A model generated the notes under the pieces. It was not told the origin of the DNA and did not search any database. It saw only the letters and a program-made list of their open reading frames with translations. A program made the translations under genes and the position numbers. This document shows, piece by piece, positions 5,903 through 61,572 of a stretch of 64,000 nucleotides of DNA; within the stretch, counting starts at the first letter, position 1; each line of letters begins with the position of its first letter. Source of the stretch: Muribaculaceae bacterium (GTDB taxonomy: Bacteria; Bacteroidota; Bacteroidia; Bacteroidales; Muribaculaceae); NCBI GenBank assembly GCA_029062005.1, contig JAIDQZ010000010.1, positions 1 through 64,000 on the forward strand, written 5' to 3'.

Positions 5903-5926
5903 TTTATAGTTAAATTATTGACTTTT

Positions 5927-6070
5927 TAGGGACGCACGGCTCGTGCGTCCTTTTTTTTCTCATGTATTACTACAATATGGCTAAGGACGGACGAGCCGTG
6001 CTATTTTCATTACAATTATGACATCCACTAATGCTTTCGGATGGCGGACGCACGCTCCGTGCGTCCCTAC
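5927..6070. repeat. REPIN-like element, copy b
   Basis: TAGGGACGCACGGCTCGTGCGTCC (5927-5950), degenerate internal copy GGACGGACGAGCCGTGC, and GCGGACGCACGCTCCGTGCGTCCCTAC (6044-6070). Confidence 0.8.
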
Positions 6071-6209
6071 ATAGTCAAAGGCGTTGCTTTTTAATAATAT
6101 CGTATTCGTTTCTTAATAAAATTGCAACACGCAACAGAATGCAAGGGTGTTATAATGGCATAGAAAGACACACAACACACTGAAAAACAGACTTAACACC
6201 TTAACCACT

Positions 6210-11568: not shown

Positions 11569-11583
11569 TTGAGAACTAATATT

Positions 11584-11722
11584 AATTGAGAATTGAGAAT
11601 TGAGAATTGAGAATTGAGTTTCTGCTTTGCAGCAAAAGAACCAAGAGTCAAGAGTCAAGGGTCAAGAATCAAGGGTCAAGCAAATTCTAAATTCTAAATT
11701 CTCAATTCTCAATTCTAAATTA
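11584..11722. repeat. Inverted pair of AATTGAG/CTCAATT tandem repeats enclosing AGTCAAG heptamer repeats
   Basis: Left arm 11584-11618 (aattgag)n; right arm 11681-11722 (aattctaaattctcaattct...); middle 'agtcaagagtcaagggtcaagaatcaagggtcaag'. Confidence 0.7.
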
Positions 11723-21300: not shown

Positions 21301-21576
21301 ACTATGGGTAAATTCGGTGAGGGAAGCAATGATATCGAACGTTCACTGCGCCAAGGACACGTAAGCTATGTGATCAATACAATAGATGTGAATCAGCATA
21401 ATACGCGTCTTGACGGATATGATATCAGACGAATCGCCATAGAAAACAATGTGACCATATTCACAGCTCTTGAGACAGTAAGAGTCCTCCTTGACGTGCT
21501 TGAGGAAATCACATTGGGAGTATCGACAATAGATGCAGAATATGGAAGAAAAGGAAACGGAATGATATCTCGGTAA
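18358..21576 (+). CDS. carB: Carbamoyl-phosphate synthase large subunit
   Basis: 1072 aa with duplicated ATP-grasp halves '[33 protein letters not shown]' and '[22 protein letters not shown]'; overlaps carA by 8 bp. Confidence 0.95.
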
Positions 21577-21702
21577 TTGAGAATATTGAATTGAGAATTG
21601 AGGGATACTGGAATTAGGATGATGTGAATCACTTTTCTGCAAAAAGCCATATCATACTCCTGAAGATGTTTTTCTCAATTCTCTATTAACAATTCTCAAT
21701 TA
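21577..21702. repeat. Inverted AATTGAG/CTCAATT repeat pair between carB and pyrKD
   Basis: 'ttgagaatattgaattgagaattgag' on the left; 'ctcaattctctattaacaattctcaatt' on the right. Confidence 0.6.
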
Positions 21703-25947: not shown

Positions 25948-25954
25948 GATTGTG

Positions 25955-26146
25955 GAGTTTTGGGGTTGTTAAGTTGTGAGGTTGTGGGGTTGTGAGGTTT
26001 GGATATGTATGGATTTGCGGGCTTGATGTTCCGGACTACTGAAATCTAAAACACAACTCCTCTACGACCAAACAACCAAACAACCACAAAACCCCAAAAC
26101 CCCAACAACTCCACAACCCAACAACCTCAAAACCCCACAACTACAG
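25955..26146. repeat. G/T-rich then A/C-rich low-complexity inverted repeat (GTTGTGAGG / CAACCTCAAAACC families)
   Basis: Left 'gttgttaagttgtgaggttgtggggttgtgaggtt'; right 'aaacaaccaaacaaccacaaaaccccaaaaccccaacaactccacaacccaacaacctcaaaaccccacaac'. Confidence 0.7.
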
Positions 26147-38874: not shown

Positions 38875-39398
38875 GTTTAATCGTTTAATTGTTTAACTGT
38901 TTAGTTCGGACTCTTTGTTTAATTGTTTAGTTCAATAAGAGATTGACCATGAATTTATTCTCATTTGAAAAGCTTGACGCTTACCAAGAATCTCGTAAAC
39001 TTGCAGTGGAAGTTTATAGGATAATACAGGAATTACCAAGCTATGAAAGATTCGATCTTGGATCTCAGTTAAGAAGATCTATCATATCAGTTTCTTCTAA
39101 TATAGCTGAAGGCTGTGGTAGAGTATCTTTACGGGAAAAGATTCATTTTTTAGAAATCGCTTATGGATCTATGCTTGAAGCATACAGTCAAATCCAATTG
39201 AGTGTGGATTTAAACTATACACATCCAGAAAGAATGACTATGCTTCAGCCTAAATTTTCGTATGTGGCTAATCTTATAAACTCGTTGAGAAAATCATATA
39301 TGATAAAATTAGAAAATAATAATCAAAAATCCACTCCAAATCAAAATTCTCAGTCAAATTCAAATAAACTAAACGATTAAACAATTAAACGATTAAAC
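38875..39398. mobile_element. Candidate four-helix-bundle (S23/IVP-like) element bounded by a 30-bp inverted repeat
   Basis: GTTTAATCGTTTAATTGTTTAACTGTTTAG (38875-38904) vs CTAAACGATTAAACAATTAAACGATTAAAC (39369-39398); reverse complements with 28/30 identity. Confidence 0.55.
38949..39380 (+). CDS. Four helix bundle protein (23S rRNA intervening-sequence protein / S23 family)
   Basis: 'FSFEKLDAYQESRKLAVEVYRIIQELPSYERFDLGSQLRRSIISVSSNIAEGCGRVSLREKIHFLEIAYGSMLEAYSQIQLS'. Confidence 0.85.
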   Translation: MNLFSFEKLDAYQESRKLAVEVYRIIQELPSYERFDLGSQLRRSIISVSSNIAEGCGRVSLREKIHFLEIAYGSMLEAYSQIQLSVDLNYTHPERMTMLQPKFSYVANLINSLRKSYMIKLENNNQKSTPNQNSQSNSNKLND

Positions 39399-42400: not shown

Positions 42401-43096
42401 TGCAATCTCACTCCGGAACAGACACGTGAATCCGTAGCTACAATGGCACACATGATCGACGAGTGCCACGTGCTTGCATTCAGCGGCGGCTTCTCACTTG
42501 GCGACGAACCAGACGGAAGCGGTAAGTTTATAGCAAGCGTCATCATGAACGAAGCTGTGAAAGAAGCAATCGAGCGACTGCTGAAACGTGGCGGTCTCGT
42601 GATCGGTATCTGCAACGGTTTCCAGGCTCTCGTAAAGTCAGGACTTCTCCCCTTCGGCAAGATAGGCGAACTCTCGGCAGAAAGCCCGACACTCTTCCGA
42701 AACGACATCAACCGCCACATATCTCAGATAGCCGTCACACGCGTCGGAAGCATCGCCTCCCCATGGCTCGACGGCTTCTCTATAGGTCAGCTCCATTCCA
42801 TCGCCGTATCGCATGGCGAGGGTAAGTTTACAGCGAGTGCGGAGCTTGTTAAGCAGCTTTCAGAAGCCGGTCAGATAGCGTTCCAGTATGCCGATGCCGA
42901 CGGCAATGCCACAATGACGAGTCCATTCAACCCTAACGGATCAACCGACGCGATAGAAGGCATCATCAGCCCCTGCGGTCAGATTCTCGGCAAGATGGGA
43001 CACTCGGAGAGATATGATGAAGGTCTGATGAAAAACATCTCAGGCGACAAACGTCAGAATCTCTTTGCTAACGCAGTTAAATACTTCAAAAAATAA
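39413..43096 (+). CDS. purL: Phosphoribosylformylglycinamidine synthase
   Basis: 1227 aa large type; 'DTYWSDHCRHTTF', 'FKNETHNHPTEIEPFGGASTCLGGAIRDPLSGR', C-terminal GATase 'GLVIGICNGFQALVKSGLLP'. Confidence 0.95.
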   Translation: MNKNKRIFVEKSGAYRVEADSLRRELNENLGLDIKDLRLICVYDVFNADPALVEEAKYRVFGEPATDTVCEDFDLDGKKYLAVECLPGQFDQRASSAEDCVKLIDPTSQAEIRSARLMIFDDGVSDEDLEKIAHYTINAVESRKKDMTVLCPPERATASPVKELTGFRDITPDKASAYIKEMGLAMNDADLMTVVDYFKNEGRDPKETELRILDTYWSDHCRHTTFMTELTDIEVEDSPVADDIRTTLELYRQMRKDLGREEKRLCLMDLACIGARWLKKQGILDDQEESEENNACSIVIDVDTENGGSEKWLLMFKNETHNHPTEIEPFGGASTCLGGAIRDPLSGRSYVYQAMRVTGAGDIYKPVSETMQGKLPQRVISKRAAAGYSSYGNQIGLATTHVREIFHPNYVAKRLEVGAVVGAVKQADVRRERPAAGDVILMFGGRTGRDGIGGATGSSKEHNVSSLEQCGSEVQKGNAPEERKIERLFHRPEVTRLIKKSNDFGAGGVSVAIGELADGLDIYLDRVPVKYSGLNATELAISESQERMSVVVEKKDMDEFIKYCHEENLEVTHVADVTDRGRMRMMMNGEVVADLSREFIDSAGATRKACVRISAVTPEMPHKTPASFEEMLSDDNVTSQKGLIEMFDSTIGASTVLMPFGGKTQGTETQVSVQKLPTGGYTNTASMMAYGFNPFISEWSPYHGAAYAVVEAVAKVAAAGGDTTRMRFSYQEYFERMHSDKSWGKPAAALLGALKMQKEFGLPSIGGKDSMSGTFADISVPPTLIAFGIVPVDARDVISPEFKEAGDTLYLLEAKPLANGMPDTDRLKENFATIHEDIKSGRIKAAYALGFGGLGEAVAKMSFGNEIGAVVEYPENDLYKWNYGAILVESAEKLGDAYLPIGATIADPILDINGVRKEISVLKEANSARFNEIYPDHADTKGTAENATSGENKTVWKGEPVEHPVVYLPVFPGTNCDYDMIRAFSREGAECTTSVFCNLTPEQTRESVATMAHMIDECHVLAFSGGFSLGDEPDGSGKFIASVIMNEAVKEAIERLLKRGGLVIGICNGFQALVKSGLLPFGKIGELSAESPTLFRNDINRHISQIAVTRVGSIASPWLDGFSIGQLHSIAVSHGEGKFTASAELVKQLSEAGQIAFQYADADGNATMTSPFNPNGSTDAIEGIISPCGQILGKMGHSERYDEGLMKNISGDKRQNLFANAVKYFKK

Positions 43097-43097
43097 T

Positions 43098-43195
43098 TTA
43101 GAATTTAGAATTGAGAATTACCCGGCTCGAAAGAATTTTCAACTTTCAATTCTCCACTCAAAAATTCTCAATTCTCAATTCACAATTCTCAATAA
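43098..43195. repeat. Inverted AATTTAGAATT/AATTCTCAATTCTC repeat pair between purL and purM
   Basis: 'aatttagaatttagaattgagaatt' on the left; 'aattctcaattctcaattcacaattctcaat' on the right. Confidence 0.6.
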
Positions 43196-43203
43196 ATAGT
43201 AAG

Positions 43204-44229
43204 ATGGCTAAATCATATGAAGCCTCCGGCGTGAATCTTGAAGCCGGATATGAAGTGGTAAGCCGCATCAAGAAGCATGTGGCAAGCACAAACCGACCGG
43301 GCGTAATGGGAAATATCGGAGCCTTCGGCGGAATGTTCGATCTCGCAAGCCTCGGCTATAAGGAACCGATTCTGGTGAGCGGCACAGACGGTGTCGGTAC
43401 TAAACTTAAAATCGCATTTGCCGTAGACAAACACGATACAATTGGCATCGATGCAGTAGCGATGTGCGTCAACGACGTTCTTGCTCAGGGTGCCGAACCC
43501 CTTTTCTTCCTTGATTATGTTGCGGTAGGCAAAAACGAGCCGGCGGTAGTGGAAGCTATCGTTTCAGGTGTCGCAGAAGGATGCCGACAGGCAGGATGCG
43601 CCCTTATCGGAGGCGAGACAGCTGAAATGCCGGGCATGTACCAGCCGGGTGACTACGATATCGCAGGATTTACGGTTGGAGCTGTCGACCGTTGCAATCT
43701 TATCGACGGAAGCAAGGTGAAGACAGGCGATGTGCTCGTAGGAATAGCATCTTCAGGCGTACATTCCAATGGATTCTCGCTCGTACGCAAGATCGTCGCA
43801 GACGCAGGACTTGAATTTGACAAGAAATACGAGGAAACAGGCGACCTGACTCTTGGAGAAATACTTCTGACCCCGACACGGATATATGTGAAACCGGTGC
43901 TTGACGTAATCCGCAACGTAGACGTTCACGGAGTGGCACACATCACCGGAGGAGGCTTCGACGAGAATATACCGCGCATACTCCACGACGGTCAGGGTAT
44001 AGAAGTGAAGGAAGGTTCATGGGAAATACTTCCGGTCTTCAGGCTTCTTGAGAAATACGGCAACGTGCCACACCGCGAGATGTTCAACATCTTCAACATG
44101 GGTATCGGCATGGTTCTTGCCGTTGACGAAAAGGATGCCGAAAAAGCCATAGAAATCCTTGAGAAACATGGAGAGAAAGCAAGCGTAATCGGAAAGATCA
44201 CAGACAAACCGGGAGTGGAAATCGTTTAA
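43204..44229 (+). CDS. purM: Phosphoribosylformylglycinamidine cyclo-ligase (AIR synthase)
   Basis: '[51 protein letters not shown]', '[14 protein letters not shown]', '[15 protein letters not shown]'. ATG at 43204 is preferred over the ORF-track start at 43111, which runs through the repeat. Confidence 0.93.
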
Positions 44230-44396
44230 TAAGTTTAAAAGGTTTAGAAGGTTTAATTGGTTTAATTGGTTTAGGTTGTTTAGGTAGTTTAGACCTCATA
44301 AACAACTCCAACTACTCAACAACCCAACAACCTCAAAACTCAACAACCTCAAAACTCAAAAACCCAATAACTCAACAACTCAACAACCCCAATATA
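44229..44396. repeat. GTTTAATTG-type repeats followed by CAACAACCTCAAAACTC-type repeats between purM and purH
   Basis: 'ggtttagaaggtttaattggtttaattggtttaggttgtttagg' then 'aacaacccaacaacctcaaaactcaacaacctcaaaactc...'. Confidence 0.7.
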
Positions 44397-47272: not shown

Positions 47273-47342
47273 ATCATAAAAAATAATTGAGAATTGAGAA
47301 TTTTGAATCTATCATACATCTTTGCAAATAATTACGGTCTCG

Positions 47343-47438
47343 GTAGGGACGTACGGCTCGTGCGTCCGCGATCCGAAATATGCAAATGCTGTGTATAATG
47401 CCAATTGCTATGCGGACGCACGGGCCGTGCGTCCCTAC
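47343..47438. repeat. REPIN-like element, copy e (compact, 96 bp)
   Basis: 27-bp ends GTAGGGACGTACGGCTCGTGCGTCCGC and GCGGACGCACGGGCCGTGCGTCCCTAC; internal ATGCTGTGTATAATGCCAATTGCTA. Confidence 0.85.
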
Positions 47439-47516
47439 CCGGCTATTGAAATAATTCTCAATTCAAAACTACTTTAGATTCTCAATTATTCAAAATTCTT
47501 AATTATAAATTGCAAT

Positions 47517-48812
47517 ATGACTGACAGATACGGAAGAGACGTGATGCGTCGCGTCTGGACTGAAAAGAATAAATTTGACGCCTATCTCAAGGTGGAGATC
47601 CTTGCCGCAGAGGCGTGGAGCAAACTTGGTGTCATTCCGGAGGAAGATGTGAAAAAACTCTGGGACAAAGCCACCTTCGACATCGACAGGATTAAGGAAA
47701 TCGAGCTTCAGACCCGGCACGATGTAGTGGCATTCACCCGTGCCGTCAGCGAGAGTCTCGGCGAGGAACGCAAGTGGGTGCACTACGGACTGACTTCCAC
47801 CGATGTGGTGGACACGGCAAACGGATACCTCTTCAAGCAGGCTGATGAAATAATCCGTGAAGACCTTGAGAAATTCTGCGAGATGCTTAAGAAACAGGCA
47901 ATACGCTTCAAAAATCTCCCTTGCATCGGACGTACCCACGGCATACATGCCGACATCACGAGCTTCGGCTTGAAATGGGTGCTATGGCTCGCTGAGATGA
48001 AACGCAACGTGGAGCGATTCAATCTCGCTGCCGCAGGGGTTGAGGTAGGCAAACTGAGCGGTGCCGTTGGTAACTTCGCAAACATCCCTCCGTTTATTCA
48101 GGATTATGTATGCGAACACCTCGGCATCAACTCCGCTGACGTTTCCACACAGGTGATACAGCGCGACCGCCATGCCTACTATATGGCTACACTCGCCGTG
48201 ATAGCATCCTCGCTTGAACAGATGGCAATGGAAGTGCGCAACCTTCAGCGCACCGAGGTGCATGAAGTGGAAGAGGCATTCGGCAAAGGACAGAAGGGAT
48301 CGAGTGCCATGCCCCATAAGCGCAATCCGATCGGCAGCGAGAATATATGCGGCTGTGCCCGCGTGATGCGCGGATATATGGCAACTGCATATGAAAACGT
48401 CGCACTCTGGCATGAGCGTGACATTTCCCACTCAGCCACCGAACGCATCATCATGCCAGACGCCACGATCCTTCTCGACTATATGCTCAACCGCATGATG
48501 GGTATTCTTGAAAATCTGACCATCTTCGAAGACAAGATGAAGGCGGATATCTATATGACCAATGGCGTCATCTTCGCCCAGCGCGTCATGAACGCCCTGA
48601 TCGGCAAAGGTTGGGTTCGCGAACAGGCTTATGACACCGTGCAACCGGTAGCCATGAAAGCAATGGCAACCGGAAGCAACTACCAAGACCTCCTTCTCCA
48701 GACCCCGGCAGTCATGGAAATGCTGACTCCCGAAGAACTCGAAGCATGCTTCACTCTCGATTACTATCTCAAGAACGTCGATTACATCTACAAAAGAAAC
48801 AAAGTTGAATAA
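47517..48812 (+). CDS. purB: Adenylosuccinate lyase
   Basis: '[36 protein letters not shown]', '[20 protein letters not shown]'. Confidence 0.95.
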
Positions 48813-48842
48813 TTTTGAATTTTGAATTTTGAATTTAGAATT

Positions 48843-49232
48843 ATGGGAAAGAGAGAAGACAATGTTGTTCTTACAAAAGCAATGGATTTCGCTGTGAGGA
48901 TTGTAAAACTTTGCAAATATCTTTCTACTGAAAAGAAAGAATATGTACTTTCCAAACAACTCTTAAGATGTGGAACATCCATTGGAGCAAATCTTTATGA
49001 AGCAAACGAAGGCTTCTCTGATAAGGATTTCCAATACAAGATATATATATCTTTAAAAGAAGCAAGAGAAACTGAATATTGGCTGGAACTTATGTTTCGG
49101 ACTGACTATATAAGTCACAAGGAATATGAGAGCATAAATGCAGACTGCGTAGAATTGCTCAAACTTCTTGTAAGCATAACTAAAACTTTGAATAGTAAGA
49201 CATCTGACCCGGAAACAAATTATTTATTCTGA
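48843..49232 (+). CDS. Second four helix bundle protein (S23/IVP-like), divergent from the first
   Basis: 'LTKAMDFAVRIVKLCKYLSTEKKEYVLSKQLLRCGTSIGANLYEANEGFSDKDFQYKIYISLKEARETEYWLELMFRTDYI'; flanked by inverted TTGAATTT/AAATTC repeats (48805-48842 and 49249-49303). Confidence 0.83.
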   Translation: MGKREDNVVLTKAMDFAVRIVKLCKYLSTEKKEYVLSKQLLRCGTSIGANLYEANEGFSDKDFQYKIYISLKEARETEYWLELMFRTDYISHKEYESINADCVELLKLLVSITKTLNSKTSDPETNYLF

Positions 49233-49305
49233 ATTCAATCAACACGTGATTCAAAATATTCAATTAGAATAATTCAAAATTCTAAATTAAAAATTCTAAA
49301 TTATC

Positions 49306-53720: not shown

Positions 53721-53783
53721 GACCCCATCTCATAAAATATTTTTTAATTTTGAAATCTAAGTTCAAAATAAATGACCTAAAAA

Positions 53784-53810
53784 GGACGCACGGCTCGTGC
53801 GTCCTTTTTA
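53784..53810. terminator. Solo REP hairpin (copy f) acting as a bidirectional terminator between convergent guaA and GH2 genes
   Basis: AAAAAGGACGCACGGCTCGTGCGTCCTTTTTA: the REP hairpin flanked by A-run and T-run between convergent genes. Confidence 0.75.
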
Positions 53811-61182: not shown

Positions 61183-61332
61183 AAGGACACACGCGCCGTG
61201 CGAAGCAAGAAATTGTCGTGTATAATGCCGATTGTAAAACCATGTATAATGCCGATTGCGAATGCGGACGCACGAAATTGCCGTGGATATTGTCGATAAA
61301 AAAAATCGGACGCACGAGCCGTGCGTCCCTAC
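61183..61332. repeat. REPIN-like element, copy g
   Basis: Degenerate left half GGACACACGCGCCGTGCG; internal GTGTATAATGCCGATTG units; right GGACGCACGAGCCGTGCGTCCCTAC. Confidence 0.75.
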
Positions 61333-61450
61333 CGAGACAATATCAATGATAAAACTGACATCACCCAAGCCAAATCAAATTCTCAATTCTAAATTCTCAA
61401 TTCTCAATTAAAATAAGTTCTAAATTCAAAATTCTCAATTACCGCGAAAG

Positions 61451-61572
61451 GTAGGGACGCACGGCTCGTGCGTCCGCCCTCCGAAGCACGAAATTGTCGT
61501 GTATAATGCCGATTGTAAAACCGTGTATAATGCCGATTGTAAAAGCGGACGCACGCGCCGTGCGTCCCTACC
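61451..61572. repeat. REPIN-like element, copy h, with two tandem CCGTGTATAATGCCGATTGTAAAA-type units
   Basis: GTAGGGACGCACGGCTCGTGCGTCCGC ... GCGGACGCACGCGCCGTGCGTCCCTAC; internal 'gtcgtgtataatgccgattgtaaaaccgtgtataatgccgattgtaaaa'. Confidence 0.85.

Follow-up and report, generated by a model that had tools for sequence, protein, structure and literature searches.

A 64,000-nt window from the genome of a Muribaculaceae bacterium (3.06 Mb in total) contains, in the spacer between purE and purL, a gene for a four-helix-bundle protein of the S23/IVP family enclosed by two inverted arrays of short repeats. For decades this family has been known only as a passenger of 23S rRNA genes or under the name 'four helix bundle protein'. 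The enclosed unit (38875-39398) is probably one copy of a widespread cassette in which an IVP gene occupies the loop of a hairpin, the arms are copied at the DNA level, and the whole spreads between spacers. The initial annotation had proposed a candidate mobile cassette at this locus resembling the intervening sequences (IVSs) of 23S rRNA genes; comparison with relatives and with other phyla strongly supports a cassette far more general than that proposal.

The two arms of the purE-purL cassette (38875-38906 and 39367-39398, both given on the + strand) form an inverted repeat of 32 nt in which 30/32 positions are complementary (94%), extending the 30-nt pair with 28/30 matches first described there. 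Each arm is a tandem array of the near-identical octamers GTTTAATC/GTTTAATT/GTTTAACT (period 8), the left (5') arm reading GTTTAATC GTTTAATT GTTTAACT GTTTAG and the right (3') arm being the inverted octamer array. The arm score is 27, whereas 20 shuffles reached 11.5 at most, which rules out a chance repeat. The 22-mer core of the arm and its close variants have no other occurrence in the 3.06-Mb genome. Inside the arms lies one intact open reading frame (ORF), IVP1, which runs from an ATG at 38949 to a stop codon at 39380 (+ strand) and encodes a PF05635/TIGR02436 protein of 143 aa. Its last three codons (L N D) and stop fall within the right arm, as originally read. An extra partial copy of the left array (38915-38933, + strand; repeat family D1, inverted pair I4) occupies the interval between arm and gene. 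The cassette's neighbours are purE, which carries an AIRC domain, and purL.

The genome encodes five PF05635 genes, and inverted short-repeat arrays flank 5/5 of them, each with its own unit (ACGTTTT/ACGTTGG, GTCTTTA, TTTTGAA, GTTTAATC and AATGATC type). One of these forms a second cassette in the window, missed by the initial annotation, in the purB-purA spacer (48809-49304, + strand). Its left arm (48809-48844) begins at the purB stop codon and is composed of TTTTGAA heptamers, with a score of 26 against a shuffle maximum of 10. The gene, IVP2 (48843-49232), encodes a four-helix-bundle protein of 129 aa that is ~18% identical to IVP1. The right arm (49269-49304) ends just 5' of the purA start.

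The association between gene and arrays was examined at 68 PF05635 loci, taken from the present genome and 60 related ones; 63 of these loci had enough flanking sequence to be scored. A tight bracket was defined as an inverted-pair score of at least 17, and non-adjacent genes in the same loci served as controls. Brackets enclose 40/63 IVP genes and 3/94 control genes (p 3e-19), while flanks compared in direct orientation reach the same score in 9/63. These two controls exclude bracketing as a trait of all spacer genes. A cross-phylum sample of 110 loci, drawn from GTDB genomes and further Bacteroidota, gave inverted scores of at least 17 in 53/110 and direct scores of at least 17 in 15/110 (p 9e-9). 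The link between this family and flanking inverted arrays is strong and reaches across phyla. Bracketed cases come from Clostridia, Selenomonadales, Betaproteobacteria, Thiohalocapsa, Desulfobacteraceae, Planctomycetota, Gemmataceae, Kiritimatiellae, Ignavibacteriae and Acidobacteriales, with arms of >200 nt in one planctomycetotal locus (L222). Copies on cyanobacterial plasmids, found in an independent search, have heptamer arms in 5/5. The plasmid cassettes L283, L284 and L285 are situated between cas6 and cas4 of clustered regularly interspaced short palindromic repeat (CRISPR) loci (type I-D in L284), or between nrdB- and nrdA-like genes. In one orthologous IVP pair (G005:C228:1118-1414 and G012:C52:1557-1853) the inverted repeat is GC-rich and not heptameric (gcagtatcgg ... 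ccgatactgc).

Arrays and IVP genes are also linked at the level of whole genomes. Array counts (AATTN3 and TTAAN3 summed) correlate with the number of IVP genes across 147 Bacteroidota genomes (Spearman 0.60, p 1e-15) and across the 60 relatives (Spearman 0.56), both values being uncorrected for shared ancestry and base composition. TTAA units are themselves array units, so the reversed pattern is no true control. When sampled stretches were scored irrespective of the repeat unit, the IVP-less genomes yielded 0 arrays (280 kb), the IVP-rich ones 9 (360 kb) and the 64-kb window 21, figures likewise without those corrections. A few IVP-less genomes nevertheless carry arrays.

These data bear on the view that IVP is an ordinary resident gene of array-rich spacers, the arrays being host hairpins that arise by slippage and fold-back synthesis. 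Such a view would accommodate the gene-less inverted arrays that are common in this genome and at the same sites in relatives, as well as the strong purifying selection on IVP described below. We consider it quite improbable given that brackets are so rare around the control genes of those loci, that inverted orientation lies far above direct, that the association is found again in other phyla and on plasmids of cyanobacteria, and that IVP-less genomes have few arrays or none.

The product of IVP1 is a confident member of its family, matching PF05635 with an E-value of 8e-30 and 103.6 bits (curated cut-off 33.8) and TIGR02436 with 103.6 bits (curated cut-off 24). Its AlphaFold model (mean predicted local distance difference test score, pLDDT, 94.3) retrieves 2gsc (template modelling (TM) score, target-normalised, 0.94), 2rld and 4dwl in Foldseek, and model and matches agree on the IVP/Avd four-helix fold first assigned to it. 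Against Avd, the accessory protein of diversity-generating retroelements (DGRs; 4dwl, and the DGR ribonucleoprotein 8ub7), the Foldseek TM score (target) is 0.82-0.85 at 9% sequence identity; homology between PF05635 and Avd has been noted previously (PMC10053308). The fold is thus shared with DGR Avd, whereas the present system is not a DGR, the genome lacking an RVT_1 reverse transcriptase; no pair of template and variable repeats was seen, though none was searched for. Weak PF05635 matches beside reverse transcriptases in the survey (G072:C250, C23, C646) resemble true DGR Avd and are distinct from the array-bracketed IVPs. A phage origin was rejected, IVP1 having no match among 50,697 phage records. 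The IVP protein is under strong purifying selection, with ratios of nonsynonymous to synonymous substitution rates (dN/dS) of 0.04-0.10 for IVP genes at shared sites.

Sites shared between species reveal how the arms evolve. At the gltD-ychF site an IVP gene is common to three species, with protein identities of 77-81%. In one of them (G005) both arms are built of TGATTAA units and are identical to each other at 27/27 positions; in another (G012) both arms are built of TGATCAA and are unlike those of G005. At a second shared site (G000:C90 and G005:C273, 85% identity) the unit is wholly different, and symmetry was left unscored in G005 since its right flank runs into Ns. The unit can thus change in situ, in the two arms at once, with the protein remaining conserved, and units differ among copies; together these points exclude fixed transposon ends. 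Joint change of the two arms requires either selection for pairing or copying from arm to arm. At L009:1400-1440 (G000:C119) the left array encodes the C-terminus of a gltD-like gene (IHDSMINDKL, followed by its stop codon), so arrays can overwrite gene ends.

Selection for pairing is the core of an RNA-level explanation, in which the arms would be kept complementary as a stem for RNase III, whose cut would free the IVP mRNA and divide the purE-purL transcript in two. A precedent is the Coxiella IVS, a 428-nt insert with an S23p ORF and a 28-bp terminal inverted repeat that is cut by RNase III (PMC4990558). In folding predictions the arms form the closing outer stem of the cassettes (z-scores -5.5 and -3.8), the purE-purL unit having -5.5; an Rfam scan of the window found no match to a known RNA family, including any rRNA family. 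The joint change of both arms at the gltD-ychF site would also fit, as would the strong sense orientation of IVP genes within operons. Among the relatives, IVP genes are co-directional with both neighbours in 50 cases and against both in 2 (53 versus 3 in a second count), compared with 56 with, 7 against and 33 mixed for control genes in the same loci. A need for the host promoter explains this bias equally well, and an intergenic insert need not be removed by the host. Selection acting on RNA would be expected to leave G.U in excess of A.C, but across 112 cassettes with an arm score of at least 18 there are 186 G.U and 255 A.C mismatches, a test that slippage and register shifts blur. The IVS-like stem first suggested for this locus is upheld as a predicted closing structure; the mismatch counts argue against selection for RNA pairing. 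The missing G.U excess favours copying of the arms at the DNA level and lends no support to excision by RNase III, and we regard the RNA-level explanation as rather unlikely.

The same 112 cassettes define the general architecture of the arms. The period is 7 in 88/112 and 8 in 14/112. In the 5' arm G outnumbers C in 97 cassettes, and the reverse holds in 7. By the medians, the arms end 28 nt 5' of the ATG and restart 6 nt 3' of the stop codon. The G-rich, C-poor asymmetry of the 5' arm is also seen in the gene-less arrays of the window.

The pur cluster was compared with those of nine syntenic close relatives, two of whose contigs end early. Both IVP genes are absent from their pur sites in every relative with a readable spacer. 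The purE-purL spacer measures 16-25 nt in four relatives and 59 nt in a fifth, and in four others it contains gene-less inverted arrays of the GTTTAA type. The simplest reading is one gain of the IVP gene in the present lineage. At otherwise syntenic sites the unit of gene and inverted repeat is present or absent, and the two behave as one, as the initial annotation had it. G005, for example, has a cassette 5' of gltD where the present genome has a short plain spacer; a second, 74%-identical copy was also found in a neighbouring spacer of G005. These differences between occupied, empty and array-only sites indicate a rapid turnover of spacers in these species, whether or not the gene is present. 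The gene-less arrays at the same and other sites further indicate that arrays can exist without the gene and that the repeats are not exclusive to IVP.

Terminal inverted repeats, patchy occupancy and the second, 74%-identical copy in a neighbouring spacer of G005 are features that a non-autonomous or composite transposon would also display. A transposase or reverse transcriptase would then mobilise the element in trans, with the arms as its terminal inverted repeats and IVP as cargo or as an Avd-like accessory protein, a role to which its match with Avd and the DGR ribonucleoprotein would be suited. However, arm sequences vary from cassette to cassette within a single genome and can be altered in situ, unlike fixed ends, and no target-site duplication was seen. 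No RVT_1 reverse transcriptase was found in the genome, which nonetheless carries five cassettes and many arrays; a mechanism driven by reverse transcription is therefore unlikely here, and dependence on such an enzyme was set aside. A transposon of this kind seems improbable to us.

Several observations weigh against a spreading IVP cassette with DNA-copied arms. A clear bracket is missing from roughly a third of the relatives' IVP genes and from about half of those in the cross-phylum sample, the gene-less purE-purL arrays are scattered across the tree of relatives, and the correlation between arrays and IVP genes across genomes takes no account of phylogeny. Neither transposition nor excision was seen in the comparisons, and no target-site duplication is visible between occupied and empty sites, the relatives being too divergent. 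Concerted change of the arms is clear at one shared site and was not seen at that of G027/G029. Some cassettes have been kept at the same site through a synonymous divergence (dS) of ~1-2, resembling a resident gene more than a hopping one.

We nevertheless favour the cassette reading and propose the following scheme. The architecture, as observed, is that of an IVP (S23) gene set between inverted arrays of 7-8 nt units, which form the arms of a long hairpin and leave the gene in its loop. The gene apparently lacks a promoter of its own and would rely for expression on read-through transcription of the host operon. Slippage and fold-back template switching may generate the arms and keep them complementary by copying DNA from one arm to the other, and the cassette would spread between spacers. 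IVP, as an Avd-like nucleic-acid-binding oligomer, may act on the hairpins or arrays, and gene-less arrays may represent non-autonomous relatives or vacant landing sites. By analogy with the S23 IVS of 23S rRNA, the ORF would reside in a hairpin loop, but the stem would be made or found in the spacers of protein-coding genes.

Besides the two cassettes, the window contains gene-less inverted arrays, five of which are given here (all on the + strand). The first, a heptamer array of the form GAGAATT ... AATTCTC, is possibly a non-autonomous form (11583-11722). The others are a heptamer array at 21574-21702, a GTTGTGGG-type array at 25950-26140, a heptamer array in the purL-purM spacer (43095-43187) and an array in the purM-purH spacer (44224-44391). 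The N-terminal extension of the purM ORF as listed (43111-43190) is nothing but translated array, and the true start of purM is probably the ATG immediately after. Palindromes of a second dispersed family, GTAGGGACGCACGGCTCGTGCGTCC...GGACGCACGAGCCGTGCGTCCCTAC, resemble repetitive extragenic palindromes (REPs) or miniature inverted-repeat transposable elements (MITEs) and occur at 1651-1767, 5918-6078, 47342-47439, 53778-53810 and 61307-61476; relatives G055 and G005 also have members of this family at purL-purM and purD-purB. When 0.58 Mb was searched for further kinds of cargo enclosed by inverted arrays, there were 25 bracketed IVP genes and one broken copy, the remaining array-enclosed ORFs being mostly ordinary genes with arrays in both spacers. 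At L121:3125-4294 a RhuM-like gene, so named from its sequence, adjoins an IVP gene and has inverted arrays around it as well.

The cassettes share with the 23S rRNA IVSs an ORF of the same family within a terminal inverted repeat of ~28-30 bp, a total length of ~430-530 nt and a position in the loop of a predicted RNA hairpin. They differ in lying in a protein-gene spacer (here purE-purL) and not inside a 23S rRNA gene, and in having arms that are tandem arrays of 7-8-mers with a locus-specific unit and several copies per genome. They differ too in the strong purifying selection on IVP, whereas the ORF of the Coxiella burnetii IVS is reported to be undergoing reductive evolution (PMC4990558). 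MITEs and REP-type palindromes are similarly small, intergenic inverted-repeat elements of patchy occupancy, but unlike these the cassettes have neither a fixed terminal sequence, a trait of insertion sequences as well, nor a parental transposase, their arm sequence being locus-specific. The short tandemly repeated repetitive sequences (STRRs) of cyanobacteria are intergenic heptamer repeats. These and the TAACTGA heptamers resemble the present arrays in being tandem and intergenic with a period of 7 and high turnover, often beside start or stop codons. The TAACTGA arrays of Beggiatoaceae, cyanobacteria and Bacteroidetes were described as direct repeats with essentially no inverted pairs, and without mention of the four-helix family (PMC4679880), whereas the arrays here form inverted arms around IVP genes.

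No description linking the PF05635 family to inverted short-repeat arrays was found in the open-licence papers searched. The protein family, the rRNA IVSs and the heptamer repeats were each already known; their combination is apparently new. There is a fair chance that this type of cassette is a class of its own rather than a variant of the IVS. A broader proposal can be advanced only tentatively: IVP with inverted heptamer arrays may constitute a new multi-phylum mobile class, in which a small Avd-like protein makes, copies or spreads hairpin arrays of no fixed sequence. The heptamers of cyanobacteria, Beggiatoaceae and Bacteroidota would then be its footprints, and the 23S IVS the special case whose hairpin is an rRNA helix.

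Through inverted short-repeat arrays, the S23/IVP family gains a defined genomic context across phyla, one that connects three separate curiosities, namely rRNA IVSs, DGR Avd proteins and heptamer repeats. The association makes direct tests possible, both of the binding of IVP to arrays and of whether the appearance, spread and symmetry of arrays depend on IVP. If the proposed scheme is true, it would explain one way in which spacers turn over in Bacteroidota and cyanobacteria. The recurrence of the arrangement, each time with a different unit, suggests that a kind of DNA cassette, mobile or dwelling in hairpins, has been overlooked.
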